Source of the DNA: a virus
Virus record (IMG/VR): IMGVR_UViG_3300031217_000010
Span: 1-29,999 of that record
Strand: one strand, 5' to 3'
DNA: 29,999 nt
Each line of letters opens with the position of its first letter. The stretch's first letter is position 1. A program made the position numbers and the translations under genes. The notes under the pieces are model-generated. The model was not told where the DNA came from and did not search any database. It saw only the letters and a list, made by a program, of their open reading frames with translations. Of this stretch, positions 19,093 through 29,556 are shown in pieces.

Positions 19093-19108
19093 AAGATAGT
19101 TCTTGACA
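19093..19108 (+). promoter_or_regulatory. repeated -35-like element, copy 1
   Basis: AAGATAGTTCTTGACA (16 bp) occurs here and again at 19133-19148, exactly 40 bp apart. Each ends in a perfect TTGACA but no good -10 box lies 16-18 nt downstream. With palindromic sites just upstream, these could be activator-dependent promoters. Confidence 0.4.
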
Positions 19109-19132
19109 CATAATAGTTTGATTACCCAAACA

Positions 19133-19148
19133 AAGATAGTTCTTGACA
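19133..19148 (+). promoter_or_regulatory. repeated -35-like element, copy 2
   Basis: Exact copy of 19093-19108. TTGACA at 19143-19148; the region at -10 distance (GATCTA) is poor and is overlapped by a half-site TGCAA-N6-TGCCA at 19161-19176. Confidence 0.4.
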
Positions 19149-19393: not shown

Positions 19394-19435
19394 TATAAAA
19401 ATAGTGCTTGTAATAAATGACACATGGTGTATACT
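19394..19435 (+). promoter_or_regulatory. early promoter with ACAC-N3-GTGT dyad (40-bp repeat copy 1)
   Basis: TTGTAA (19408-19413), 16 nt, TATACT (19430-19435). Dyad ACAC-ATG-GTGT at 19420-19430 ends on the first T of the -10 box. Bases 19394-19433 recur exactly at 19729-19768. It drives the gene at 19470. Confidence 0.7.
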
Positions 19436-19469
19436 GGTTATATAGAAATAAACAACAAAGGAATTAAAT

Positions 19470-19733
19470 ATGACTAAGTGTCCAAGTATTTTAACTCACC
19501 TATTAAGCGTTTATAAATCAGCCAATGATGAGGGAGCTGCTTACAGAACATTAAAGGCTTGTGTATTCACTAATAATCAGCCAGTCAATATAGTGTCAGC
19601 GATGACGGCGATTAGAGACATTCAATGTATGATTAGATTAGATAGGTGTCATGCTGTAGAATTAGAGTATTGTATCAGATACTTTTCAGAAGTAACGGCA
19701 TATAGTGCGATTGAAATAAATCAGCGATTATAA
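19470..19733 (+). CDS. hypothetical early protein
   Basis: 87 aa, ATG with AAAGGA about 8 nt upstream. MTKCPSILTHLLSVYKSAND, helical throughout, with AMTAIRDIQCMIRLDRCHAV and four Cys scattered without a zinc pattern. First gene of a cassette with its own dyad promoter; its stop codon lies inside the next promoter repeat. No family recognised. Confidence 0.65.
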   Translation: MTKCPSILTHLLSVYKSANDEGAAYRTLKACVFTNNQPVNIVSAMTAIRDIQCMIRLDRCHAVELEYCIRYFSEVTAYSAIEINQRL

Positions 19734-19770
19734 AAATAGTGCTTGTAATAAATGACACATGGTGTATAAT
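19729..19770 (+). promoter_or_regulatory. early promoter with ACAC-N3-GTGT dyad (40-bp repeat copy 2)
   Basis: TTGTAA (19743-19748), 16 nt, TATAAT (19765-19770). Dyad ACAC-ATG-GTGT at 19755-19765 shares its last T with the -10 box. It begins 2 nt before the stop codon of the preceding gene, and 40 bp are identical to the previous promoter. Confidence 0.75.
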
Positions 19771-19801
19771 GAAGTATAGAAACAAACAACAAAGGGAACT
19801 T

Positions 19802-20068
19802 ATGAACTTAGACACTACACTTATAGAAAATTTAGAGCTGATAGACAAAAAGAGAGTAGGTCAGGAATTTGAAATGATTTCAAAGCATGGTAACGCATAC
19901 AGGTTTAGTCTTATTTTTAATAGTCGTGGTAACTATGGCTATATAATTGAAAGGCAAAACGGAATTACAGGAAAATACCATTTTGAAACTTCTAGCGGAT
20001 ACCTAACAAGTAGGTCTCACCTATATCAATGCGTGGAGTCTCAAGTATTTTACCACTATGAACTTTAA
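19802..20068 (+). CDS. hypothetical early protein
   Basis: 88 aa from the ATG at 19802 (AAAGGG 6 nt upstream). A longer in-frame start at 19739 would begin inside the promoter, so it is rejected. Mixed alpha/beta, with EMISKHGNAYRFSLIFNSRG and YGYIIERQNGITGKYHFETS reading as antiparallel beta strands. No known motif. Confidence 0.65.
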   Translation: MNLDTTLIENLELIDKKRVGQEFEMISKHGNAYRFSLIFNSRGNYGYIIERQNGITGKYHFETSSGYLTSRSHLYQCVESQVFYHYEL

Positions 20069-20071
20069 TAC

Positions 20072-20099
20072 TTTTTAATTATGACACATGGTGTATAAT
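20072..20099 (+). promoter_or_regulatory. early promoter with ACAC-N3-GTGT dyad
   Basis: TATAAT at 20094-20099, with a weak -35 (TTTTTA, 20072-20077) at 16 nt. Dyad ACAC-ATG-GTGT at 20084-20094 shares the -10 T, as in the two preceding promoters. Confidence 0.6.
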
Positions 20100-20140
20100 G
20101 AGCTGATTTACTAGAGTGTAACAAAGATAGGGGGTAACTA

Positions 20141-20401
20141 ATGATTTACTTTGTGCAATTACTAAAAGCTGTTAAAGATAAAAGAATGTTAGCAATGATG
20201 CTAAATGATATTCAGTGGGAAGTGGAGGAGCTAGGTTACACTGGTCTAGAGAGTGAACTAATAAATGAATTATTGTCTAGTCATTTTGGTGTCGAGATAG
20301 AATGCCCTAATCAACTAGATATGTTAACTAAGTGGGTACTCAATAATCAAGGTCTCATCAATACAAAGGCTGAAGAACTAGTGAAATCATATAACCTGTA
20401 A
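20141..20401 (+). CDS. hypothetical early protein
   Basis: 86 aa, ATG with GGGGG upstream. MIYFVQLLKAVKDKRMLAMM is amphipathic helical, followed by acidic helices (WEVEELGYTGLESELINELL). No membrane segment, zinc or catalytic pattern seen. Followed 26 nt later by a strong terminator, so this cassette ends cleanly. Confidence 0.65.
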   Translation: MIYFVQLLKAVKDKRMLAMMLNDIQWEVEELGYTGLESELINELLSSHFGVEIECPNQLDMLTKWVLNNQGLINTKAEELVKSYNL

Positions 20402-20427
20402 ACTAGGTAACATTTAAAAGATCATAG

Positions 20428-20451
20428 CCCCTAGAAATAGGGGTTTTTTTT
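20428..20451 (+). terminator. intrinsic terminator
   Basis: CCCCTA-GAAA-TAGGGG followed by eight T: a 6-bp stem with a GNRA (GAAA) tetraloop and a T-run. It ends the cassette starting at 20141 and separates the early genes from the next control region. Confidence 0.9.
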
Positions 20452-20465
20452 GGTTAAAATAGTTA

Positions 20466-20494
20466 TTGACAAACAGTGGCACTTGTGCATACAG
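20466..20494 (+). promoter_or_regulatory. early-type promoter
   Basis: TTGACA (20466-20471), 17 nt, ATACAG (20489-20494) as a weak -10. It carries the upstream module AAAATAGTTATTGAC also seen at 22022 and 22730. GCAC-TT-GTGC lies in the spacer in place of the usual ACAC-N3-GTGT dyad. No gene follows closely. Confidence 0.4.
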
Positions 20495-20726
20495 GGGATA
20501 GTTGCAATGACCTAAAACTGCTGGAAGAACTGGACCTAATATTGACTGAGATAGAGGTAAGTGGTTGATATCAAAGGGGTTTTATGGCAGCCTTCTTTGG
20601 TATACCCTATACACTACTTTTAAGCTGTATAACCTAATTCGCTATCAGCTAGTAACCTTAAGCACTCTTTATTGTAATGTTTGGAAGTTTTATAGATAAG
20701 AAAAATGTTGGTGACTACATGGTTAC

Positions 20727-20748
20727 TCTGTACTACCAGTTGTTAAAT
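20727..20748 (-). promoter_or_regulatory. late-type motif in the early region, site F
   Basis: Minus-strand reading ATTTAACAACT then GGTAGTACAGA: 19 of 22 bases equal site A. It points leftward, into early genes, where no minus-strand gene follows. Confidence 0.5.
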
Positions 20749-20832
20749 GTTGACTTACGCATTTAGTTAAATGGCGAATTTCTAGGATAGGAGACCTAAG
20801 AGGATGTAATAGATATTAAAGCACGGTCGTAC

Positions 20833-20870
20833 TTACGCACAACTAAGTTGTTGATTACTGGTGAGCGTAA
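20833..20870. repeat. nested inverted repeats
   Basis: Outer arms TTACGC (20833-20838) and GCGTAA (20865-20870) enclose a perfect 13-bp palindrome ACAACT-A-AGTTGT (20839-20851). The outer arm is part of ACTTACGCA, also present at 20752-20760. Candidate cruciform or protein-binding site. Confidence 0.45.
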
Positions 20871-20977
20871 ACAGATTCCAAGTACTTACAAAATGTAATT
20901 TGGTGGAAAGATTTTCAGGTATTAAAATAATAATTCAATTATAGCCTATTATTAAATAGTTATAATAAATTATTTTC

Positions 20978-21006
20978 TTTACACGAGGTGTTATTTTTGC
21001 TATTAT
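20978..21006 (+). promoter_or_regulatory. early promoter with dyad over the -35 box
   Basis: TTTACA (20978-20983), 17 nt, TATTAT (21001-21006). Dyad ACAC-GAG-GTGT at 20981-20991 overlaps the -35 box rather than the -10, so the bound factor could act differently here. Confidence 0.55.
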
Positions 21007-21039
21007 AGTTATAGGGAAACAAAACAAGGGATTAAAGCA

Positions 21040-21087
21040 ATGAACCAACTAAACGAAGATTATATCTTTGAAGTGAGGAAAAAATGA
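21040..21087 (+). CDS. possible 15-aa leader peptide
   Basis: MNQLNEDYIFEVRKK, with AAGGG 9 nt upstream, in the leader after the 20978-21006 promoter. It could be a short regulatory or remnant frame ahead of the 130-aa gene. Confidence 0.3.
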   Translation: MNQLNEDYIFEVRKK

Positions 21088-21158
21088 AGTGGACTTAGAC
21101 AATTATACCGCAAAAGGTCAATGTTAAAAAATACTTCACTTTCGGGGAGAAAATAGTA

Positions 21159-21551
21159 ATGAAAATAGAAATAACACCTAAACAATTATACTTGATAGAA
21201 CTAATTAATGAGAAGCGGGGTAAAAGAAATAAGTTATTAGCTAGTCAGTCTTCCATAGACTATTACACTAAGTGGTGGGCTGATTACGCTCTAGAAATAA
21301 TAGAAGAGCTAGGAGACTTTGATTTTAGTGGGGTAGAGGTAGAGATAACAGATAGCACTAGTTCAAATTGTTATCGTTCAGAAAATTATAAAGTAACATC
21401 TCCTAGAAAGCTAGAATCAAGAGACCTAGATATACTTAGAGCTTATGATACTTTTATGGGAGGTCAGGAGGTGGGAAAGTTATACCGAGAGGAGGAGATA
21501 AACGGAAAATTTGTCTATAATCTAAAATCGGTATGTGATAGTTCAGACTAA
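21159..21551 (+). CDS. hypothetical early protein
   Basis: 130 aa, ATG with GGGGAG about 9 nt upstream. MKIEITPKQLYLIELINEKR reads like a helical start, followed by a Ser/Asn-rich central turn (ITDSTSSNCYRSENYKVTS) and an acidic C-terminus. Cys late in the sequence are isolated. No known family. It is the only gene of its cassette. Confidence 0.65.
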   Translation: MKIEITPKQLYLIELINEKRGKRNKLLASQSSIDYYTKWWADYALEIIEELGDFDFSGVEVEITDSTSSNCYRSENYKVTSPRKLESRDLDILRAYDTFMGGQEVGKLYREEEINGKFVYNLKSVCDSSD

Positions 21552-21584
21552 ACAAAATTATTAGAATAGTGGTTTATTTTTTAA

Positions 21585-21613
21585 TTGACATACTGTATTA
21601 AATAATGTATACT
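21585..21613 (+). promoter_or_regulatory. consensus-like early promoter
   Basis: TTGACA (21585-21590), 17 nt, TATACT (21608-21613). No ACAC-N3-GTGT dyad. It lies 34 nt after the stop of the 130-aa gene and drives the three small genes that follow. Confidence 0.75.
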
Positions 21614-21652
21614 AATTTTAGAAGGTAATAAATGATTCAAAAAGGAGACAGC

Positions 21653-21805
21653 ATGACTATTACTAAACAAATATCAGTTATCATTAGAATTCTAAACAAT
21701 TCTAGATTACACACTTGCCCTTGTGGATTTCAATGTATGCCTATGATTGTCAGTGGTAATAAGTTTACGTGTCCAGAATGTGAAAATGAAAGCGAGATTC
21801 AATAA
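21653..21805 (+). CDS. 50-aa zinc-finger-like protein
   Basis: AGGAG lies 6 nt upstream of the ATG. A helical N-terminus (MTITKQISVIIRILNNSRLH) is followed by TCPCGFQC and, 12 residues later, CPEC, a plausible zinc ribbon (C-x-C-x3-C plus C-x2-C). The next gene starts in its stop codon (TAATG), so it is the head of a coupled three-gene set. Function unknown. Confidence 0.6.
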   Translation: MTITKQISVIIRILNNSRLHTCPCGFQCMPMIVSGNKFTCPECENESEIQ

Positions 21806-21894
21806 TGATAGAATTATTTGTATACATTAACGGCTTTGTTATTGTAACAATAATCGGTATTGATATGTTGATGAATAGTAAAAGGAGAAGATAG
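21805..21894 (+). CDS. 29-aa membrane micro-protein
   Basis: MIELFVYINGFVIVTIIGID then a basic tail MLMNSKRRR: one membrane helix with a positive C-terminus. Coupled by TAATG to the upstream gene and by TAGTG to the following gene. Confidence 0.5.
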   Translation: MIELFVYINGFVIVTIIGIDMLMNSKRRR

Positions 21895-22028
21895 TGAAAT
21901 ATGTAATTGCGCCACATAAAGGATACTGGGCAGTATGGGAAGATGTTGACAATTGGAAGAAGTGTAACCCTATTAGTGATCTTTATGTGGATTATATGGG
22001 GGCATTCCAATGGTTATTAACAAAATAG
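21894..22028 (+). CDS. 44-aa hypothetical protein, GTG start
   Basis: GTG overlaps the upstream TAG; AGGAG lies 6 nt before it. MKYVIAPHKGYWAVWEDVDN then KKCNPISDLYVDYMGAF, ending in WLLTK. Trp- and Tyr-rich and soluble. Its stop codon sits in the next promoter module. No family recognised. Confidence 0.55.
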   Translation: MKYVIAPHKGYWAVWEDVDNWKKCNPISDLYVDYMGAFQWLLTK

Positions 22029-22031
22029 TTA

Positions 22032-22060
22032 TTGACGCAGTGTATAAAGTATGATATAAT
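22032..22060 (+). promoter_or_regulatory. early promoter
   Basis: TTGACG (22032-22037), 17 nt, TATAAT (22055-22060). The upstream module AAAATAGTTATTGAC (22022-22036) includes the TAG stop of the previous gene. No dyad of the common type. Confidence 0.7.
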
Positions 22061-22088
22061 TATGTATAACCTAAAAAAGAGGACAATC

Positions 22089-22736
22089 ATGGAAAAATCA
22101 ATACTCGAAAAAATACAAAAACTTTTAAAACTAGCCGAGTCGTCAAATGAGAATGAAGCAAAACTAGCAATGACTAAAGCGCAGGACCTCATGTTGAGAC
22201 ATAATATCAGTATGCGTAGCGTTGAAAACCATGATAGTGAATATATCAATGAAACTTCAGACACTTTTAAAAGAAAGCCCGAAAATTCGGACTATATCAA
22301 TAACATTTTAAGAAAATACTTTTTTATTGAGATAGTAACATCTAAAAGACATGGGGGTTCATTTTTTAATTATATAGGTGAAAAAAATAACGTTAATACG
22401 GCTATTTATATGAGAAACTTTATAACTGATACTTTTAAAAGGTTGTGGTTAGACTACAAAAAAGAGACTGGGGTAAGTGTTAGGTCTAAAAGTTCTTTCA
22501 TGTATGGATTACATCAAGGTTTTTGTGAGAAGTTAGAAGAACAACGACAAAACGTAGAGCAAGAAACAGGACTAGTACTTGTAAACGACCAAAAAGCAAC
22601 CAACAAAATGAATGAATTATTTTCTAAATTGTCAAAGGGTAGGGCTTCAAAAACTACTATTAGGGATTGTCAAGCTGTTAATAGTGGTGTAAGACAAGGT
22701 AAAAAGATTACAATATCAGCAGGTGCACTAAAATAG
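22089..22736 (+). CDS. DUF2786-domain protein
   Basis: 215 aa from the ATG at 22089, which has AGAGGA upstream; an earlier in-frame ATG falls on the promoter and is rejected. The N-terminus ILEKIQKLLKLAES, EAKLAMTKAQDLMLRHNIS (residues about 5-40) matches the DUF2786 pattern of phage proteins. The rest continues in the same family (YMRNFITDTFKRLWLDYKKE, then RSKSSFMYGLHQGFCEKL) to a basic C-terminus. No activity is established for the family; the basic middle suggests nucleic-acid binding. Single-gene cassette with its own promoter. Confidence 0.8.
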   Translation: MEKSILEKIQKLLKLAESSNENEAKLAMTKAQDLMLRHNISMRSVENHDSEYINETSDTFKRKPENSDYINNILRKYFFIEIVTSKRHGGSFFNYIGEKNNVNTAIYMRNFITDTFKRLWLDYKKETGVSVRSKSSFMYGLHQGFCEKLEEQRQNVEQETGLVLVNDQKATNKMNELFSKLSKGRASKTTIRDCQAVNSGVRQGKKITISAGALK

Positions 22737-22739
22737 TTA

Positions 22740-22769
22740 TTGACATACTATAACACACTGTGTTATACT
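22740..22769 (+). promoter_or_regulatory. early promoter with ACAC-N3-GTGT dyad
   Basis: TTGACA (22740-22745), 18 nt, TATACT (22764-22769). AACACACTGTGTT (22752-22764) contains ACAC-ACT-GTGT ending at 22763, next to the -10 box, and is a perfect 13-bp palindrome. The module AAAATAGTTATTGAC at 22730-22744 includes the previous gene's TAG. Confidence 0.7.
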
Positions 22770-22787
22770 TAGGTAAGGGAGTAAAAG

Positions 22788-23258
22788 GTGAACTACAAAA
22801 GAAAAGACATTGATCTAGCTTATAGTAATATTAGAACTATTATTGATAAGCTCATGATACGATATCAGGTTAATTTTAAGCCCTCTAGTAATGCTCCTAG
22901 TACTTACAAGGCTATGCGCTCTAAAAGAGACGAGAACGGCTATTTCGTTGTTTACAACGGTGGTGATCATGGACTACTAGGTGAGGACTATAATATTAAG
23001 TTTAGAGCCCTACATGACTTTATGCATTACAAGCATAATTTAAGTTTTAAATTTGAAGATGAAAGAAAATTGTCCGATATAACAATGATAACTTTTAGTG
23101 AAATGGCATGGGGTGAACTAAACATTACAGCTTGGCAGACTCATTGCATTCGACAAGTTATAGATAGGGAAATAAGAGGACAAATTGATTATTTTGAAAC
23201 AAGAGGTCACTATGTACCTAATCAAAGTGTGTTTATTTTAGACCACTTCAACTTATAA
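22788..23258 (+). CDS. hypothetical phage protein with HD-type motif, GTG start
   Basis: 156 aa, GTG with GGGAG about 6 nt upstream. It holds the motif FRALHDFMHYKHNLSFKFED, where R-x-x-HD-x-x-H-x-K is a pattern found in uncharacterised phage proteins and could bind a metal. Later regions (MAWGELNITAWQTHCIRQVI) are helical. Role unknown; the HD/H cluster makes a hydrolase or ligand-binding function possible but unproven. Confidence 0.65.
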   Translation: MNYKRKDIDLAYSNIRTIIDKLMIRYQVNFKPSSNAPSTYKAMRSKRDENGYFVVYNGGDHGLLGEDYNIKFRALHDFMHYKHNLSFKFEDERKLSDITMITFSEMAWGELNITAWQTHCIRQVIDREIRGQIDYFETRGHYVPNQSVFILDHFNL

Positions 23259-23273
23259 ACAAAAGGAATTTAC

Positions 23274-23759
23274 ATGAAAAAACTAATCGCATTGGCTACT
23301 CTAGTTTTACTAACAAGTTGCGGGAAAGACATTTCAGTTATTGAAACTTTTAAAACTCAAGATTTCGAAGGTTTCTATTTTTGCGACAATCAATCAAGTT
23401 TAGAATTACTAGTTGATTTTAACAATAGAGTGACATTTGAAACAAGCGGTCAATCTCTTAATACCGTTAATCCAGTTAACGACACACTAGGGACACATCC
23501 AACAATTGGAGAAAGGGATTTATTGATGGCTAACAATAAACTAATAGTTACACCTAGAAACTACAACTATAATTCAGCCACACACGATATCGAAGAGGAC
23601 ATTGGTGGGTCCGACATCAATGGTAACAGACGCACGGACTTAGAGGTAGTTTTGGTTAAAGAAAAGGAAGTGAACATTACTATCAGCATTTTTGCTAATG
23701 CTGTAAATTCAAATGTCAATAATGTTGTAGTAAAAAGAACAATTAATTGTAAAAAATAA
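23274..23759 (+). CDS. phage-encoded lipoprotein
   Basis: 161 aa. MKKLIALATLVLLTSC is a textbook type II signal peptide with lipobox L-T-S-C (Cys16), followed by Gly at +2 (no Asp retention signal), predicting outer-membrane anchoring in a Gram-negative host. The mature part is beta-rich and has DIGGSDINGNRRTDLEVVL. Phage lipoproteins made early are known to exclude superinfecting phages by blocking receptors; such a role is inferred here. Follows the previous gene by 15 nt in the same cassette. Confidence 0.8.
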   Translation: MKKLIALATLVLLTSCGKDISVIETFKTQDFEGFYFCDNQSSLELLVDFNNRVTFETSGQSLNTVNPVNDTLGTHPTIGERDLLMANNKLIVTPRNYNYNSATHDIEEDIGGSDINGNRRTDLEVVLVKEKEVNITISIFANAVNSNVNNVVVKRTINCKK

Positions 23760-23760
23760 G

Positions 23761-23788
23761 TTGACAATAATAACGCATAGTGTATAAT
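23761..23788 (+). promoter_or_regulatory. early promoter with near-dyad
   Basis: TTGACA (23761-23766), 16 nt, TATAAT (23783-23788). Dyad ACGC-ATA-GTGT at 23773-23783 shares the -10 T (one mismatch to ACAC-N3-GTGT). TTGACA starts 1 nt after the lipoprotein stop. Confidence 0.7.
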
Positions 23789-23814
23789 TAAAGTAAGTCA
23801 AAAAGGGGGTATTT

Positions 23815-24009
23815 ATGGCATCACAAAATTATCTAAATACTCAAGAAGGTGAAACTACGGAATTGGTTCAAATTTTCCTACCTACCATAGATACCCCCCC
23901 TTCTATTTCTCGTTTACATGAGCTGAGGATGACGAAAAGAGTAATGGACAAAGTAAAGAAACAAAGCGAAACATTTTATAGATATAACGACAAGGAGAAT
24001 GTAGCATGA
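23815..24009 (+). CDS. hypothetical small protein
   Basis: 64 aa, ATG with GGGGG 6 nt upstream. MASQNYLNTQEGETTELVQI, a Pro-rich turn (FLPTIDTPPSISRLHELR), then a basic helical C-terminus. No family recognised. The 33-aa membrane gene begins in its stop codon. Confidence 0.6.
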   Translation: MASQNYLNTQEGETTELVQIFLPTIDTPPSISRLHELRMTKRVMDKVKKQSETFYRYNDKENVA

Positions 24010-24107
24010 AAGGATTAAATAGTCAGAATTTTTTCTATTTAGGATTACTAATTGGTTTATCTATTTTAATAATTATGCAGGAGCTACTGGAATGGTTTAT
24101 TGGATAA
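24006..24107 (+). CDS. 33-aa membrane micro-protein
   Basis: ATG in the ATGA overlap with the 64-aa gene. MKGLNSQNFFYLGLLIGLSI then LIIMQELLEWFIG: one membrane helix and an acidic end. The next micro-gene overlaps it by 16 nt in another frame. Confidence 0.45.
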   Translation: MKGLNSQNFFYLGLLIGLSILIIMQELLEWFIG

Positions 24108-24160
24108 CAAAACATTTAATTTTATTGTACTTTTTAATTTTTATAATCAATCAAGCTTAA
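24092..24160 (+). CDS. 22-aa membrane micro-peptide overlapping the previous one
   Basis: ATG at 24092 with AGGAG 8 nt upstream; sequence MVYWITKHLILLYFLIFIIN then QA. The start is inside the 33-aa gene in a different frame. Very short; kept because of the ribosome site. Confidence 0.35.
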   Translation: MVYWITKHLILLYFLIFIINQA

Positions 24161-24172
24161 TAGGAGCATAAC

Positions 24173-24814
24173 ATGGCAGATAAAAAAGGGAACACTGGTT
24201 ACAGGAACACTGGTTACAGGAACACTGGTGACATGAACACTGGTAACTATAACAATGGTGACAGTAACACTGGTAGCTGTAACACTGGTTACAGGAACAC
24301 TGGTAACATGAACACTGGTAACATGAACACTGGTAGCTGGAACACTGGTAACATGAACACTGGTAGCTGGAACACTGGTAACTGGAACACTGGTAACTAT
24401 AACACTGGTAGCTGTAACACAACAACACCTAATGTTAGATTATTTAACAAAGAAACAGACTGGAAATTTACGGGGACGAAGTACGCATCTTTTTTGAATA
24501 AAATTTATAAATACCAATGTAATCTTTGTAGGTGGGTATATAGTAAAGACATGACACTTGAAGAGAAAAGGGACCATAAGACACACGAAACTACAGGAGG
24601 TTATTTAAAAGTGTTAAAATCTAAATACAACGAAAAAGAAGTCTCAAAAGAGGACATTGATTACTTTGAAAGTCTTCCTAACTTTTGTCCTAAGATACTA
24701 GAGGAGACTACTGGAATTGTATTAAATAAAACCAAAACAATAGAAATTGACGGAGAGACCATTGAAATTAGTCTAGATAGTTTTAATCAATTAAAGAAAA
24801 GTTTACTTAAATAG
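24173..24814 (+). CDS. NTGxx pentapeptide-repeat protein with conserved C-terminal domain
   Basis: 213 aa, ATG with AGGAG upstream. Residues 7-81 are 15 tandem pentapeptides N-T-G-x-x (one NNG), xx being YR, DM, NY, DS, SC, NM, SW or NW; at the DNA level 15-bp units at 24191-24415. This is the Pentapeptide_2-like layout (N-x-G-x-x), which makes a beta-solenoid-like rod. The C-terminal domain has VRLFNKETDW, WVYSKDMTLEEKRDH, TTGGYLKV and YFESLPNFCPKILEETTGI, matching a widespread phage family of unknown function with WxxSxxMTxEEK, TTGGYLK and LPNFxxxIxxETTGI. Predicted soluble and non-enzymatic. A Cys-rich shadow frame on the other strand is a repeat artefact. Confidence 0.85.
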   Translation: MADKKGNTGYRNTGYRNTGDMNTGNYNNGDSNTGSCNTGYRNTGNMNTGNMNTGSWNTGNMNTGSWNTGNWNTGNYNTGSCNTTTPNVRLFNKETDWKFTGTKYASFLNKIYKYQCNLCRWVYSKDMTLEEKRDHKTHETTGGYLKVLKSKYNEKEVSKEDIDYFESLPNFCPKILEETTGIVLNKTKTIEIDGETIEISLDSFNQLKKSLLK

Positions 24815-24824
24815 GAGAAGGACT

Positions 24825-25235
24825 ATGCGTCAAGTTGTATTTACAGAATTTTTTATCTTTTCAGCACATAAAAAGGGACTCTCGGTAAACGAGAATCATA
24901 AGAGGTCTAGAGAGCTTTGGAATGTTTTAACAGATTTAGGTGTCAACTTTGTTAACGTGGGAGGATGTTATAAAGACGATAAACAACAATCAATTATGTT
25001 ACTAGACGGGAATGAGGAAACTGTAAAAGAGCTATGCGGCTTATATGATCAAGAAAGCTACTTGCATAGAAGTGCGGATAACTCCGTTTTACTTAAAATG
25101 TTAGAAGGGGAAATTATAGAGTTAGGAGAACCATTGGTAATAACTCAAAATGAACTAAACGATTTTGAAAGTTACACAATTTTACCTCAAAAAAATGGCA
25201 CTAATCTGTATTTTACTTTTAAAAAGGTACAATAA
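24825..25235 (+). CDS. hypothetical protein, tentative DUF3293-like
   Basis: 136 aa, ATG with AGGAG 7 nt upstream, 10 nt after the pentapeptide gene. The segment SAHKKGLSVNENHKRSRELW, then LGVNFVNVGGCYKDD and QSIMLLDGNEETV, follows the order N..L..L..G-x-Y..E/Q-S-x-L of DUF3293-type small proteins. The C-terminus is beta-rich. No catalytic residues seen. It is the last gene of its cassette. Confidence 0.55.
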   Translation: MRQVVFTEFFIFSAHKKGLSVNENHKRSRELWNVLTDLGVNFVNVGGCYKDDKQQSIMLLDGNEETVKELCGLYDQESYLHRSADNSVLLKMLEGEIIELGEPLVITQNELNDFESYTILPQKNGTNLYFTFKKVQ

Positions 25236-25238
25236 AGG

Positions 25239-25267
25239 TTGACAAGTAATGACACATAGTGTATACT
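25239..25267 (+). promoter_or_regulatory. early promoter with ACAC-N3-GTGT dyad
   Basis: TTGACA (25239-25244), 17 nt, TATACT (25262-25267). Dyad ACAC-ATA-GTGT at 25252-25262 shares the -10 T. TTGACA starts 3 nt after the upstream stop. Confidence 0.75.
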
Positions 25268-25956: not shown

Positions 25957-26212
25957 ACGAGAACAATTAAAAAAAGAATTAAAAGGTAAATTTTTTACAG
26001 TAGTATTCACTAAGAAAAACGGCACACTTAGGAAAATGAATGCAAGACTTGGTGTTACTAAACATTTAAAAGGTGGCAGTAAGTCTTTTAATGACGCTGA
26101 TTTTAATTATCTAACAGTCTTTGACCTACAAAAGAAAGCTTATAGAACTGTAAACCTAAACACTGTAAAAAAGATAACCTGTAAAAAAGACTTGACGCAT
26201 CTTGTTAATTAG
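25949..26212 (+). CDS. DUF2693/WYL_2-like small protein
   Basis: 87 aa from the ATG at 25949; the earlier frame start is not supported by a ribosome site. FFTVVFTKKNGTLRKMNARL, then GVTKHLKGG and LTVFDLQKKAYRTVNLNTV fit the DUF2693 (WYL_2, Sm-like) pattern F-x-V-x-F-x-K-x-DG-x-R-x-M, with a beta-rich core and a lysine-rich C-terminus. Family members are small phage proteins of unknown role with an SH3/Sm-like fold. The rII-cassette promoter lies inside its 3' end. Confidence 0.7.
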   Translation: MNKREQLKKELKGKFFTVVFTKKNGTLRKMNARLGVTKHLKGGSKSFNDADFNYLTVFDLQKKAYRTVNLNTVKKITCKKDLTHLVN

Positions 26213-26237: not shown

Positions 26238-26444
26238 ATGAACTTAAACGAAAAAGATTTTAAATTAATTATCAAAAGCTTAGAACTTCTTACAAAAGAA
26301 GCCGACAGTCAAAAAAGCAAACAATACATAGTAGAACTTAGGGATTACTTTTCGAATGCGCTTTGTGATATGTTACCCCTAGAAACAACTAAAGAAGATT
26401 GTCCAGACTATAATAGACTAACAGTAGAGGAGAGTAACAAATGA
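26238..26444 (+). CDS. 68-aa hypothetical protein preceding rIIA
   Basis: AGGAGG 6 nt upstream of the ATG is a very strong ribosome site. MNLNEKDFKLIIKSLELLTK, helical and acidic, single soluble domain. It ends in a 4-nt ATGA overlap with rIIA, so it is the leader gene of this operon. No family recognised. Confidence 0.7.
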   Translation: MNLNEKDFKLIIKSLELLTKEADSQKSKQYIVELRDYFSNALCDMLPLETTKEDCPDYNRLTVEESNK

Positions 26445-28405
26445 AATACCAAACTTCAGAAAATAAACTAATACAGTCACAGAAAACTATGTCGGTAGAG
26501 TTGAGCCTTAATGACACAAAAAAGGCTATTGAACTTCTTTACTCTCAATACAGAAATCCAATTAGAACTACCGTACAGGAAATTGTATCCAATGCTTTTG
26601 ATGCGATGACGCAATCTGGCAAGGAAAATGTGCCTATAAAAATACAAGTACCTAACGAAATAAATGACTTTATGTTTGGTGTTAGGGATTACGGCAATAG
26701 TATGGATGATCATACTATAAAAACAGTTTATATGAGAGTAAACGCTACGACAAAAGGCGCAAGTAACAATCAAATAGGAGGATTTGGTATTGGCTCTAAG
26801 ACACCTTGGAGTTACACCGACACGTTTATATTGAAAACCTTTTTAAATGGAGTAGAGACTCATTACGTGCTTGTTAAGGGTAGAAATACAGTGCAAATAG
26901 GTTACAAAGGTGAGACTGAAGAAGATAATGGCACTGAGGTACTTTTTAAAACTAAAAGACAAGACGTTGATTCATTTAAGTCTGCCATTAGTCGAATTAG
27001 TTTGCTAGCTAAGACTAAACCACAAGTAAATGGACACGTTAGAAATAAAGTGCTTAACAAAATCGAAGCTTCTAGTAACATATTTTTGATTGACAATTAC
27101 ATTGATTCCGAGATCTCTAAGGTTTTTGTGAGTATGGGAGGAGTTTTGTATAGAATATGTCGTAATGATTTCCCACTACCTTTAATAGGTCAAATAACTA
27201 CAGGACTAAAAAATTGTAATCTCATTATAACCTTACCTATTGGATCATTGATGCCACTACAGACAAGGGAGGGGTTATTCACACAAGGAGACGAGGGACA
27301 AAATAACAAAACAATACTAAAAAAAATCCTAAAATCCACTTATGATAAATTAGTAGCCCTAGAGACAAAAGAAAAAAGTAAAATTGTTGATATAGAGACC
27401 GCAATAAACTATAATGCGACGGCTAAATTTACCTTAGAACATAAAGAGTTTTCTTTTGGTAAAGTAAAGGTAAATTGTAGAAATCAAATTGACGTATCAG
27501 AGTTCAAGGTAAAAAACCTATTTAGCATTATTACAAGGAAAAGGAAGCGTTATGGACAAGGCAAAAATTTGACTGCAAGAAAAGATACTCAAAATTGGAT
27601 TACCATAGGAGAGAAAACCGTCATGTTTAGTGAAGTTTCACCCAATATAGCTAAACTAAATAAAAGACTTTGCGAGATTACATATAAAGAAGACGTTGTT
27701 GTTCTTGAAAAACATTTATTTGAAAACCAAGAAACTTACGAAATGCTTAAACTTCAATTAAAAGCGATTGATGTTCTCAAGATCGAAGTGCCTAAGGTAA
27801 CTAGAACTTTATCCAGTAGTTACAAGAGAGATAGTAATGAGGTTGTTTTATATAATTATGACAATAGCAGATCACATAGCGTATACCTTGACGAAGGGTT
27901 TAAATCTCCGACCATCATAAGAAAAAAAGGTGACAACAATGGTATATTTACAGCTAAACATTTAGGTGTACTTGGTTATGACGTTTATTATGTTGCACCT
28001 TCTAACTTTAAGAAATTTAAAGGTGTTAGTAATGTATTTAATGATTCGGACGTAAATGACCTAACACCATTAAGAAAGGAGTATGTTATATGTTTTGCTA
28101 ACAGGGTAACTAAAAATATTCAACTACAATGGGACTCTGAAAAAATAGAGCTATTACCTGAAAATAAGAGAATCTTATTTAAAACTAAAACGACTACATT
28201 AGATCATTATAATTTCTACGGAATAGAAAAGCTACTAAAAACGAATAAATTCGATAAAGAAATGAGAAGGGAGATAAAAAGAAAAATAAGAGCTTTCAAT
28301 TTAGAAAAAAAATTACCTTTAGTTGGGGTAGTAGAATCTTATGACATTGATGGTCAAATAGCTACAGAATTAAAAACCTACATAAACAATAAATTGGGAG
28401 AATAG
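26441..28405 (+). CDS. rIIA: rIIA-like GHKL ATPase-type membrane integrity protector
   Basis: 654 aa. The N-terminal third has the GHKL/HSP90-type ATP fold: EIVSNAFDAM (E47, N51, D54; N-box), VRDYGNSM (D83-x-G85; G1 box) and IGGFGIGSKTPW (about 112-123; G2 box), with NATTKG before it. The C-terminal part is long and beta/alpha-rich, as in T4 rIIA. It is followed one base later by rIIB, the classic pairing. Role in the family: needed for growth on certain lysogens through protection against prophage-encoded exclusion; biochemical function unclear. Promoter upstream is a strong early type. Confidence 0.85.
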   Translation: MKYQTSENKLIQSQKTMSVELSLNDTKKAIELLYSQYRNPIRTTVQEIVSNAFDAMTQSGKENVPIKIQVPNEINDFMFGVRDYGNSMDDHTIKTVYMRVNATTKGASNNQIGGFGIGSKTPWSYTDTFILKTFLNGVETHYVLVKGRNTVQIGYKGETEEDNGTEVLFKTKRQDVDSFKSAISRISLLAKTKPQVNGHVRNKVLNKIEASSNIFLIDNYIDSEISKVFVSMGGVLYRICRNDFPLPLIGQITTGLKNCNLIITLPIGSLMPLQTREGLFTQGDEGQNNKTILKKILKSTYDKLVALETKEKSKIVDIETAINYNATAKFTLEHKEFSFGKVKVNCRNQIDVSEFKVKNLFSIITRKRKRYGQGKNLTARKDTQNWITIGEKTVMFSEVSPNIAKLNKRLCEITYKEDVVVLEKHLFENQETYEMLKLQLKAIDVLKIEVPKVTRTLSSSYKRDSNEVVLYNYDNSRSHSVYLDEGFKSPTIIRKKGDNNGIFTAKHLGVLGYDVYYVAPSNFKKFKGVSNVFNDSDVNDLTPLRKEYVICFANRVTKNIQLQWDSEKIELLPENKRILFKTKTTTLDHYNFYGIEKLLKTNKFDKEMRREIKRKIRAFNLEKKLPLVGVVESYDIDGQIATELKTYINNKLGE

Positions 28406-28406
28406 C

Positions 28407-29171
28407 ATGCCAACTGTATTTATTACAAATAAAACTATGACAGTTATTAACAAAGGTAAAATAGAAATAGTAGATTTGAATACTGATCTAGGTAAGGAAT
28501 GTTTAATTGCATATCAAGATGATGACATTGATGATATTATTTTTATGATAAACGAAGATAAAATTTTAGGAGATGATGTAGAAGAATCAACAACCGGAAA
28601 CATATTAATAGAAGGGGTAGAGTTAGAAGTTGACCTAGCTAACAAAGTTCGACAATTTAAAAACGAAAACGTTCCTTTTGATCACCTTCTAAAGTTCGCG
28701 GAAAGGGTAAAAGATAACCCCTCTTTTAACAGTAGGAAGATGCTGTATAAGTTTTTAGAACATAACGGTCATCCTATCACAAAAACAGGGACTTTTCTTG
28801 CTTATAAAAAGGTTACGCATGATTTTAAGGATTTACATACTAAATCTTTTGATAATTCAATTGGTAACGTAGTAGAGATGGATAGGAATCTAGTAGATGA
28901 TAATCCGAATAATACCTGTTCTAGTGGGTTACATGTTGCATCTTTTGGGTATGCAAAAGACTTCGGAAATGGTAAGCTACTCTTAGTAGAGGTTGCTCCA
29001 GAGGACGTAGTCAGCGTTCCAGTAGACTACAAAGGCACAAAGATGAGAACTTCTAGGTACACCGTGTTAAGTGAAGTTAACGAAGAATTAGACGGTCTAA
29101 TAGTGGAGGATCGCGACGAATCATTTGAAGAAGATTGGAGTATTGACTATGATGGTAGTTTGTATTGGTGA
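28407..29171 (+). CDS. rIIB: rIIB-like protein
   Basis: 254 aa. The key block YKFLEHNGHPITKTGTFLAY, with KKVTHDFKDLHTKSFDN and GNVVEMDRNLVDDNP, followed by NNTCSSGLHVASF and VVSVPVDYKGTKMRTSRYTV (residues about 115-220), is the recognisable core of T4-type rIIB. It starts one base after the rIIA stop with GGGAG upstream, as in T4-like phages. Acts together with rIIA; molecular function unknown. Confidence 0.85.
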   Translation: MPTVFITNKTMTVINKGKIEIVDLNTDLGKECLIAYQDDDIDDIIFMINEDKILGDDVEESTTGNILIEGVELEVDLANKVRQFKNENVPFDHLLKFAERVKDNPSFNSRKMLYKFLEHNGHPITKTGTFLAYKKVTHDFKDLHTKSFDNSIGNVVEMDRNLVDDNPNNTCSSGLHVASFGYAKDFGNGKLLLVEVAPEDVVSVPVDYKGTKMRTSRYTVLSEVNEELDGLIVEDRDESFEEDWSIDYDGSLYW

Positions 29172-29180
29172 GGAGTAGAA

Positions 29181-29324
29181 ATGAAATGGATATTTTTAAT
29201 TGTCACAATTAGTACTTTAGCTAGCGAGGTCTGTTACGAAGTGACTTGCACAAGAGTAACTAATGGTGTAACTTTATACACAACAGCATGTAACTACTGT
29301 CCGATAGGTTGGACACAAGAATAG
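29181..29324 (+). CDS. 47-aa exported Cys-rich peptide
   Basis: RBS AGGAG 5 nt upstream. MKWIFLIVTISTLAS is a signal-peptide-like start; Cys at 18, 23, 37 and 40 follow in a Thr-rich sequence (EVCYEVTCTRVTNGVTLY, then CNYCPIGW). Could form disulphides outside the cytoplasm. A third Cys-bearing exported peptide in this window, but not clearly related to those at 17558 and 17970. Function unknown. Confidence 0.5.
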   Translation: MKWIFLIVTISTLASEVCYEVTCTRVTNGVTLYTTACNYCPIGWTQE

Positions 29325-29331
29325 GAGAGAT

Positions 29332-29556
29332 ATGAGAACTTTTAAGAAATACGCTAACAGAAAGCTTTATAGCACTCAGGATAGTAAGTATGTAAACCTT
29401 ACTCAATTGTACAATGAAGTAAAAGGCGGAGTGACCGTTATCGTTACTGAAAATAAGACTGGTAGGGATGTTACACTAGAGACTCTAAAACAGGCTGTAA
29501 TGCGTTGTAAACCTATGAGCTTAGATAGTGTAGAAGAATTAATTAGAAACGATTAG
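29332..29556 (+). CDS. PhaR N-terminal-domain-like DNA-binding protein
   Basis: 74 aa, AGGAG upstream. FKKYANRKLYSTQDSKYVNL then LYNEVKGG and TGRDVTLETLKQAV match the PHB/PHA accumulation regulator N-domain pattern KKYPNRRLYDT-x-S-x-YITL, D..VV..G..f.V.D..TG.DlT...L. That domain is DNA-binding in PhaR-type regulators of polyhydroxyalkanoate synthesis. Here it stands alone, without the PhaR C-terminal part. It may regulate host or phage promoters, or displace host PhaR; both are inference. Confidence 0.75.
   Translation: MRTFKKYANRKLYSTQDSKYVNLTQLYNEVKGGVTVIVTENKTGRDVTLETLKQAVMRCKPMSLDSVEELIRND

Follow-up and report, generated by a model that had tools for sequence, protein, structure and literature searches.

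ACAC-N3-GTGT dyads in predicted early promoters of an approximately 80-kb phage and a phage-encoded PHB_acc_N protein as their candidate regulator

The sequence analysed here (the window) is a 29,999-nt stretch corresponding to positions 1–29,999 of the IMG/VR virus record IMGVR_UViG_3300031217_000010, and all positions below are those of the window unless stated otherwise. Its predicted early region carries six exact copies of the dyad ACAC-N3-GTGT and one near match, ACGC-ATA-GTGT, all of which are built into promoters of host type. The window also encodes a 74-amino-acid protein with the DNA-binding domain of the PhaR family of polyhydroxyalkanoate regulators (PHB_acc_N, PF07879), and bacterial relatives of this protein have nearly identical sites upstream of their own genes. 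It is moderately probable, judged from sequence, that the dyads are operators of this protein, which would act as a PhaR-type repressor and shut off the early cassettes. The initial annotation of the window had proposed that one regulator coordinates a subset of early cassettes; this fits well and now has a phage-encoded candidate, although part of the pattern is due to promoter duplication.

The six exact dyads listed in that annotation and its near match at 23773 are all present (Table 1). Six exact copies in the window compare with 0.30 expected, and none of 100 shuffled sequences reached this number. The genome-wide scan that had been put forward as a check was run on the 80,105-base contig IMGVR_UViG_3300031334_000002, which belongs to the same phage of approximately 80 kb (13,556 of 13,559 compared bases are identical to the window), and it returned the same six exact dyads and no seventh, all in predicted early promoters. 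When all 256 half-sites were counted at spacings of 0–12 in the early region, ACAC-N3-GTGT was an outlier with six occurrences against 0.08 expected (p = 3.5e-10), the runner-up dyad having a p-value of 8e-5. For the other seven 10-kb segments, the top dyad gave p-values from 4e-3 to 5e-6. Over the whole genome without localisation ACAC-N3-GTGT is not the top-ranked dyad, so the signal lies in its clustering and its placement at promoters.

Most of the promoters named previously are recovered when the genome is scanned for TTGACA-N16–18-TATAAT, allowing up to two mismatches. At 19420, 19755, 20084, 23773 and 25252 the dyad and the -10 box share one T, the last of the dyad and the first of the -10, and at 22753 the dyad abuts the -10, which agrees with the annotated placement of six dyads there. 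The dyad at 20981 had been described as covering the -35 box; it does overlap this box, but the overlap is limited to three of its six bases. Several of these promoters are copies of one another. The sites at 19420 and 19755 lie in a duplicated block of 43 nt (98%) with copies at 19394 and 19729, the sites at 20084 and 19755 have ATGACACATGGTGTATAATGA in common, and those at 22753 and 25252 are followed by the common stretch TATACTTAGGTAAGGGAG (at 22764 and 25262). Because of these promoter duplications, the number of independent sites is below seven. The arms are nevertheless perfect in the exact dyads while the spacers vary (ATG, GAG, ACT, ATA), and the position of the dyad is not fixed: at 20981 it lies at the -35 instead of the -10, and at 22753 it is displaced by one base. 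Constant arms with a changing spacer and position are as expected of a selected binding site, that is, an operator. Two copies of AAGATAGTTCTTGACA, a -35 box with an upstream element like those at 20456 and 22730, are also found at 19093–19148 in a gene-poor stretch with no evident -10, and these are possibly remnants of duplicated promoters.

The candidate regulator is encoded downstream of genes for rIIA-like and rIIB-like proteins. Its product belongs to the PF07879 domain family (E = 6.9e-17, 61.7 bits against a curated cut-off of 25, residues 4–57) and falls outside TIGR01848, the equivalog model of PhaR as full polyhydroxyalkanoate synthesis repressor, with 43.7 bits against a cut-off of 109.45. 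Among the non-structural proteins scanned, no other DNA-binding regulator was recognised. The predicted structure is confident (pLDDT 85) and has no solved relative; searches of solved structures with the PHB_acc_N domain of the protein did not provide a useful match. The protein does not match any of the phage records of the GenBank collection or any PHROG family, and a FastTree tree of the PHB_acc_N domains, approximately 60 residues long, gave it no firm placement. A literature search found no description of a phage PHB_acc_N protein.

Relatives of the phage protein (35–51% identity) were taken from 80 bacterial loci in Desulfobacteria, Myxococcota, Bdellovibrionota and other groups, and the 350 bases upstream of the 80 PHB_acc_N genes were searched with all half-sites at spacings of 0–6. 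The top dyad is ACGC-N3-GCGT, found at 22 loci where 0.73 would be expected (p = 4e-25). The most enriched half-sites differing by one base are ACAC (8 against 1.07) and ATGC (8 against 1.71), and by these counts CGC, CAC and TGC are half-site forms in use among PHB_acc_N-linked sites. ACRC-N3-GYGT is over-represented upstream of the PHB_acc_N genes of delta lineages (22 of the 80 loci for ACGC-N3-GCGT, eight for the ACAC variant), and this form occurs 33 times within 400 bases upstream, compared to 45 times in the remaining ~660 kb. The bacterial consensus is TRACGC-RNY-GCGTYA, which often runs into TATAAT or begins in TTGACG, as in the phage. In an Oligoflexia genome that carries two PHB_acc_N genes there are 10 TRACRC-N3-GYGTYA sites against two in a backwards control, and both ACAC and mixed half-sites occur among them, for example in TGACACATCGTGTCA and TGACACATGGCGTCA; a Wallbacteria genome (G026) contains 51 against three, and most other whole genomes tested contain small numbers. 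Within approximately 400 bp upstream of PHB_acc_N genes of Desulfobacteria, Myxococcota and others (L075–L154), the TRACGC-N3-GCGTYA sites look like an undescribed regulon.

A matrix derived from the perfect bacterial ACGC-N3-GCGT sites alone was applied to the 80-kb phage genome. The first-ranked position is the site at 22753 (TATAACACACTGTGTTATAC), the third and fifth are 26195, in the promoter before the rIIA–rIIB–regulator genes, and 22035, and the second and fourth are in coding sequence. The promoters at 20466, 21585, 22032 and 26192 had been annotated as lacking the dyad, which does not hold for 22032 and 26192: in both, a degenerate copy is joined to the -35. With ranks of fifth and third in 80 kb, these two undo the clear division into promoters with and without a dyad.

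On the 80-kb contig, the structural genes (terminase, portal and capsid) are encoded leftward, and the early and replication genes, which include a B-family DNA polymerase, a DnaB-like helicase, an ERF recombinase, ThyX and a dUTPase, are encoded rightward. The dyad region encodes an S-adenosylmethionine lyase-like protein, DUF2786 and DUF7178 proteins and a WYL_2 protein, which fit early genes, and the genes of this region are predicted to be early from their content and their host-type promoters. These promoters would be expected to be read by the host polymerase. No integrase was recognised among the phage proteins scanned, and a near-DNA search of phage records gave zero matches.

In the proposed mechanism, the 74-amino-acid protein would be a PhaR-family DNA-binding domain without the polymer-sensing tail. 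A dimer would probably bind TRACRC-N3-GYGT in the host-type early promoters, fused to the -10 at the six sites listed above and to the -35 at 20981 and, weakly, at 22032 and 26192. Upon infection, host RNA polymerase would use the dyad promoters at once; after expression of the rIIA–rIIB–regulator operon, the regulator would occlude the polymerase at the -10 or -35 and turn the early cassettes off, and through 26195 it would exert weak feedback on the operon that encodes it. Dimer binding, repression by occlusion and the timing of the shut-off are inferred, whereas the sites, their places in promoters, the domain and the resemblance to sites beside bacterial relatives are observed. A wider version, in which the phage captured only the DNA-binding domain, its half-site changed from CGC to CAC so that host sites are ignored, and the early off switch belongs to a recurrent rIIA–rIIB–regulator module of distantly related phages, is tentative and somewhat doubtful as a whole.

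The operators of characterised PhaR proteins lie at promoters and have the form of dyads with an N3 gap: CTGC-N3-GCAG for Rhodobacter sphaeroides, TGNTGC-N3-GCAA for Herbaspirillum, YTKNTGCRNYGCANMAR for Ralstonia and, flanked by AT-rich arms, YGC-RNY-GCR for Sinorhizobium (PMC12542648, PMC3206438 and PMC12849132, taken jointly). They commonly lie over or adjoin the -35 and -10 boxes (PMC3206438, PMC12542648). The phage dyad has this geometry, being a palindrome with 4-bp arms and an N3 spacer at promoters. Several observations weigh against a PhaR-type operator. The YGC-RNY-GCR core is not matched: six of the seven sites have CAC-RNN-GTG instead, with a half-site CAC that is without the G conserved in characterised PhaR half-sites; the spacer begins with R at all seven, and the full RNY is present at 22753 alone. 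Most of the phage sites fused to the -10 receive low scores from the bacterial matrix (-8 to -1.5), because their arms carry A instead of G, their spacers end in a purine and the -10 takes the position of the right flank; if the phage dyad is an operator, it is thus a changed version. The scores at 26192 and 22032 are inflated by the -35 TTGACG, and with TTGACG fixed they have a chance of 0.4% and 1.1%, respectively. Upstream sites are absent from all 30 Bdellovibrionota phaR genes searched. ACRC-N3-GYGT is not supported as a general mark of PHB_acc_N phages, as nine other viral contigs encoding the domain exhibit no clear enrichment. Conversely, 34 further contigs, among them many fragments, have the dyad-promoter pattern, mostly as a single copy, but no PF07879. 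A closer relative that includes the early region was not found.

The main rivals are a host PhaR-family protein and a regulator that was not recognised. Under the former, the dyads would be operators for the host's PHB_acc_N regulator, through which the phage would sense the storage or nutrient state of the host, and the 74-amino-acid protein would compete or otherwise act. The promoters at the dyads are of host type, PHB_acc_N is found in 232 of 241 Bdellovibrionota genomes and is common in other delta lineages, and mixed ACAC/ACGC sites occur in the Oligoflexia genome. This is unlikely, as sites are mainly ACGC in bacteria and ACAC in the phage, which points to a re-specified reader, and the phage has a PHB_acc_N domain of its own. 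Operators of another regulator missed by family searches, such as an XRE/CI-like or ribbon-helix-helix protein, are quite unlikely as well. Many regulators use short N3 palindromes at the -10, dyads of the ACACATTGTGT type lie at the -10 in another phage group whose examined fragments lack PF07879, and many early ORFs (open reading frames) have no family assignment. Against this, no helix-turn-helix or other regulator was recognised among the scanned non-structural proteins, and an unrecognised regulator leaves the match to the sites upstream of PHB_acc_N genes unexplained.

Two further explanations were considered. The dyad could be a passenger in a duplicated promoter cassette, for which the clear duplication at 19394/19729 and the related blocks speak; spacers and position vary around two perfect arms, and together with the p-value of the cluster this makes a passenger very improbable. 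N4-type hairpin promoters for a virion RNA polymerase, with a short stem and a 3-nt loop, would suit the 4-bp stem of the dyad, and the site at 22753 folds better than shuffled sequences (z -2.5). Two of the three sites tested fold no better than shuffles, most sites have -35 and -10 boxes, and the longest ORF of the 80-kb genome encodes 1,266 amino acids, which leaves no N4-type polymerase of approximately 3,500. Hairpin promoters were rejected on this ORF size and the weak folding, and their likelihood is very low.

Among other phages, the near relatives that share the portal (60–81% identity) are fragments that do not include the early region, and two long relatives (~84 kb, portal ~49%) and the fragments examined contain neither the dyad cluster nor PF07879; the joint absence in the long relatives favours the proposed pairing of dyad and protein. 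Isolated exact dyads in G013, inside a stretch matching a structural protein, and in G010 have no promoter context. In four of the nine other viral contigs with PHB_acc_N, rIIA and/or rIIB is located within approximately 4 kb of the PHB_acc_N gene, and in two it is directly upstream, as in the window (Table 1). This recurrent neighbourhood suggests a functional module, speaks for the proposed reading and is apparently undescribed.

Three of the PHB_acc_N phage contigs contain very dense arrays of GTCTCA-N3-TGAGAC (L199 1–5000, L202 1–5000 and L203 1–2000), at approximately 17–22 per kb with up to three mismatches in L199 and L202. As a second operator system these arrays were rejected, since they are mostly in coding sequence and a scan of the collection gave mainly single matches. 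In the phage group with dyads of the ACACATTGTGT type, ACACAATGTGT/ACACATTGTGT dyads occur 710–864 bp apart, and each pair has one member joined to a -10. A relative of the phage analysed here, IMGVR_UViG_3300002231_003179 (L027/L039), has a long, intein-like in-frame insert in its terminase and a homing-endonuclease-like ORF ahead of the capsid gene. Within the window, a pentapeptide-repeat-like protein with NTG.. repeats is encoded at 24173–24814 by 15-nt DNA units in tandem, and the phage has another copy of it at contig positions 69601–70287. Phosphoribosyl synthetase-like and NAPRTase/NAMPT-like families were found among the scanned proteins, probably representing the adjoining ORFs at G001 63290–66485 (L022 3290–6485), which we take to resemble phage counter-defence by NAD+ rebuilding.

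If the dyads are operators of the phage protein, they would provide a concrete switch from early to later expression in an uncharacterised phage lineage, with the DNA-binding domain of a metabolic regulator turned phage repressor and both operator and protein identified. TRACGC-N3-GCGTYA would be a testable operator for the PHB_acc_N proteins of Desulfobacteria, Myxococcota and other groups, and the question is raised of why PHB_acc_N travels with rIIA and rIIB.

Table 1. Putative operator sites, genes and related neighbourhoods (window positions unless a contig is named)
Feature	Position	Strand	Promoter element	Context
Operator-like dyad ACAC-ATG-GTGT	19420–19430		-10 TATACT 19430–19435; -35 TTGTAA 19408–19413	Upstream of ORF 19470–19733
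Operator-like dyad ACAC-ATG-GTGT	19755–19765		-35 TTGTAA 19743; -10 TATAAT 19765	In duplicated promoter block 19729–19771; upstream of ORF with ATG at ~19802
Operator-like dyad ACAC-ATG-GTGT	20084–20094		-10 TATAAT 20094; -35 poor	Upstream of ORF 20141–20401
Operator-like dyad ACAC-GAG-GTGT	20981–20991		Overlaps -35 TTTACA (20978–20983)	Upstream of ORF 21159–21551
Operator-like dyad ACAC-ACT-GTGT	22753–22763		Abuts -10 TATACT 22764	Within longer palindrome ATAACACACTGTGTTAT; upstream of ORF 22788–23258
Mixed dyad ACGC-ATA-GTGT (one bacterial-type half-site)	23773–23783		-10 TATAAT 23783	Upstream of ORF 23815–24009
Operator-like dyad ACAC-ATA-GTGT	25252–25262		-10 TATACT 25262	Upstream of DUF7178 ORF
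Putative degenerate operator ACGC-AGT-GTAT	22035–22045		Fused to -35 TTGACG (22032)	Rank 5 with bacterial matrix
Putative degenerate operator ACGC-ATC-TTGT	26195–26205		Fused to -35 TTGACG (26192)	Promoter before rIIA–rIIB–regulator; rank 3 with bacterial matrix
S-adenosylmethionine lyase-like protein (PF23780)	24825–25235	+		Counter-restriction function typical of early genes
rIIA-like protein	26441–28405	+		Upstream of regulator ORF
rIIB-like protein	28407–29171	+		Upstream of regulator ORF
Candidate regulator, PHB_acc_N (PhaR DNA-binding domain, PF07879)	29332–29556	+		74 amino acids; without C-terminal part of bacterial PhaR
rII and PHB_acc_N neighbourhoods	Window 26441–29556; L202 9083–10279; L203 6727–10273; L204 3270–10240; L199 8581–13400			
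ACACAATGTGT/ACACATTGTGT dyads	L228; L233 6758 and 7468; L234 7486 and 8350			No PF07879 in fragments examined

The closest known systems are the PhaR/AniA/PhbF regulators of the metabolism of polyhydroxyalkanoate, a bacterial storage polymer (PF07879, TIGR01848), which share with the phage the DNA-binding domain, a short N3-gapped palindrome and sites overlapping the -35 and -10 boxes. The phage protein differs in its length of 74 amino acids without a tail, under the TIGR01848 cut-off, whereas the bacterial proteins have 100 to more than 200, and the half-site is CAC at phage early genes in place of YGC. The ACGC-N3-GCGT sites of Desulfobacteria, Myxococcota and others resemble the phage dyads in the ACRC half-site, the N3 spacer, the TR flank and the fusion to -35 or -10, and are unlike them in having G rather than A at the third half-site position, an RNY spacer and a location near the regulator's own gene. 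The dispersed operators of temperate phages, such as the stoperators of mycobacteriophage L5 and the c1 operators of P1, allow one repressor to act at many genomic sites, as is proposed here for a single phage repressor; those operators are asymmetric, and their repressors belong to other protein families.

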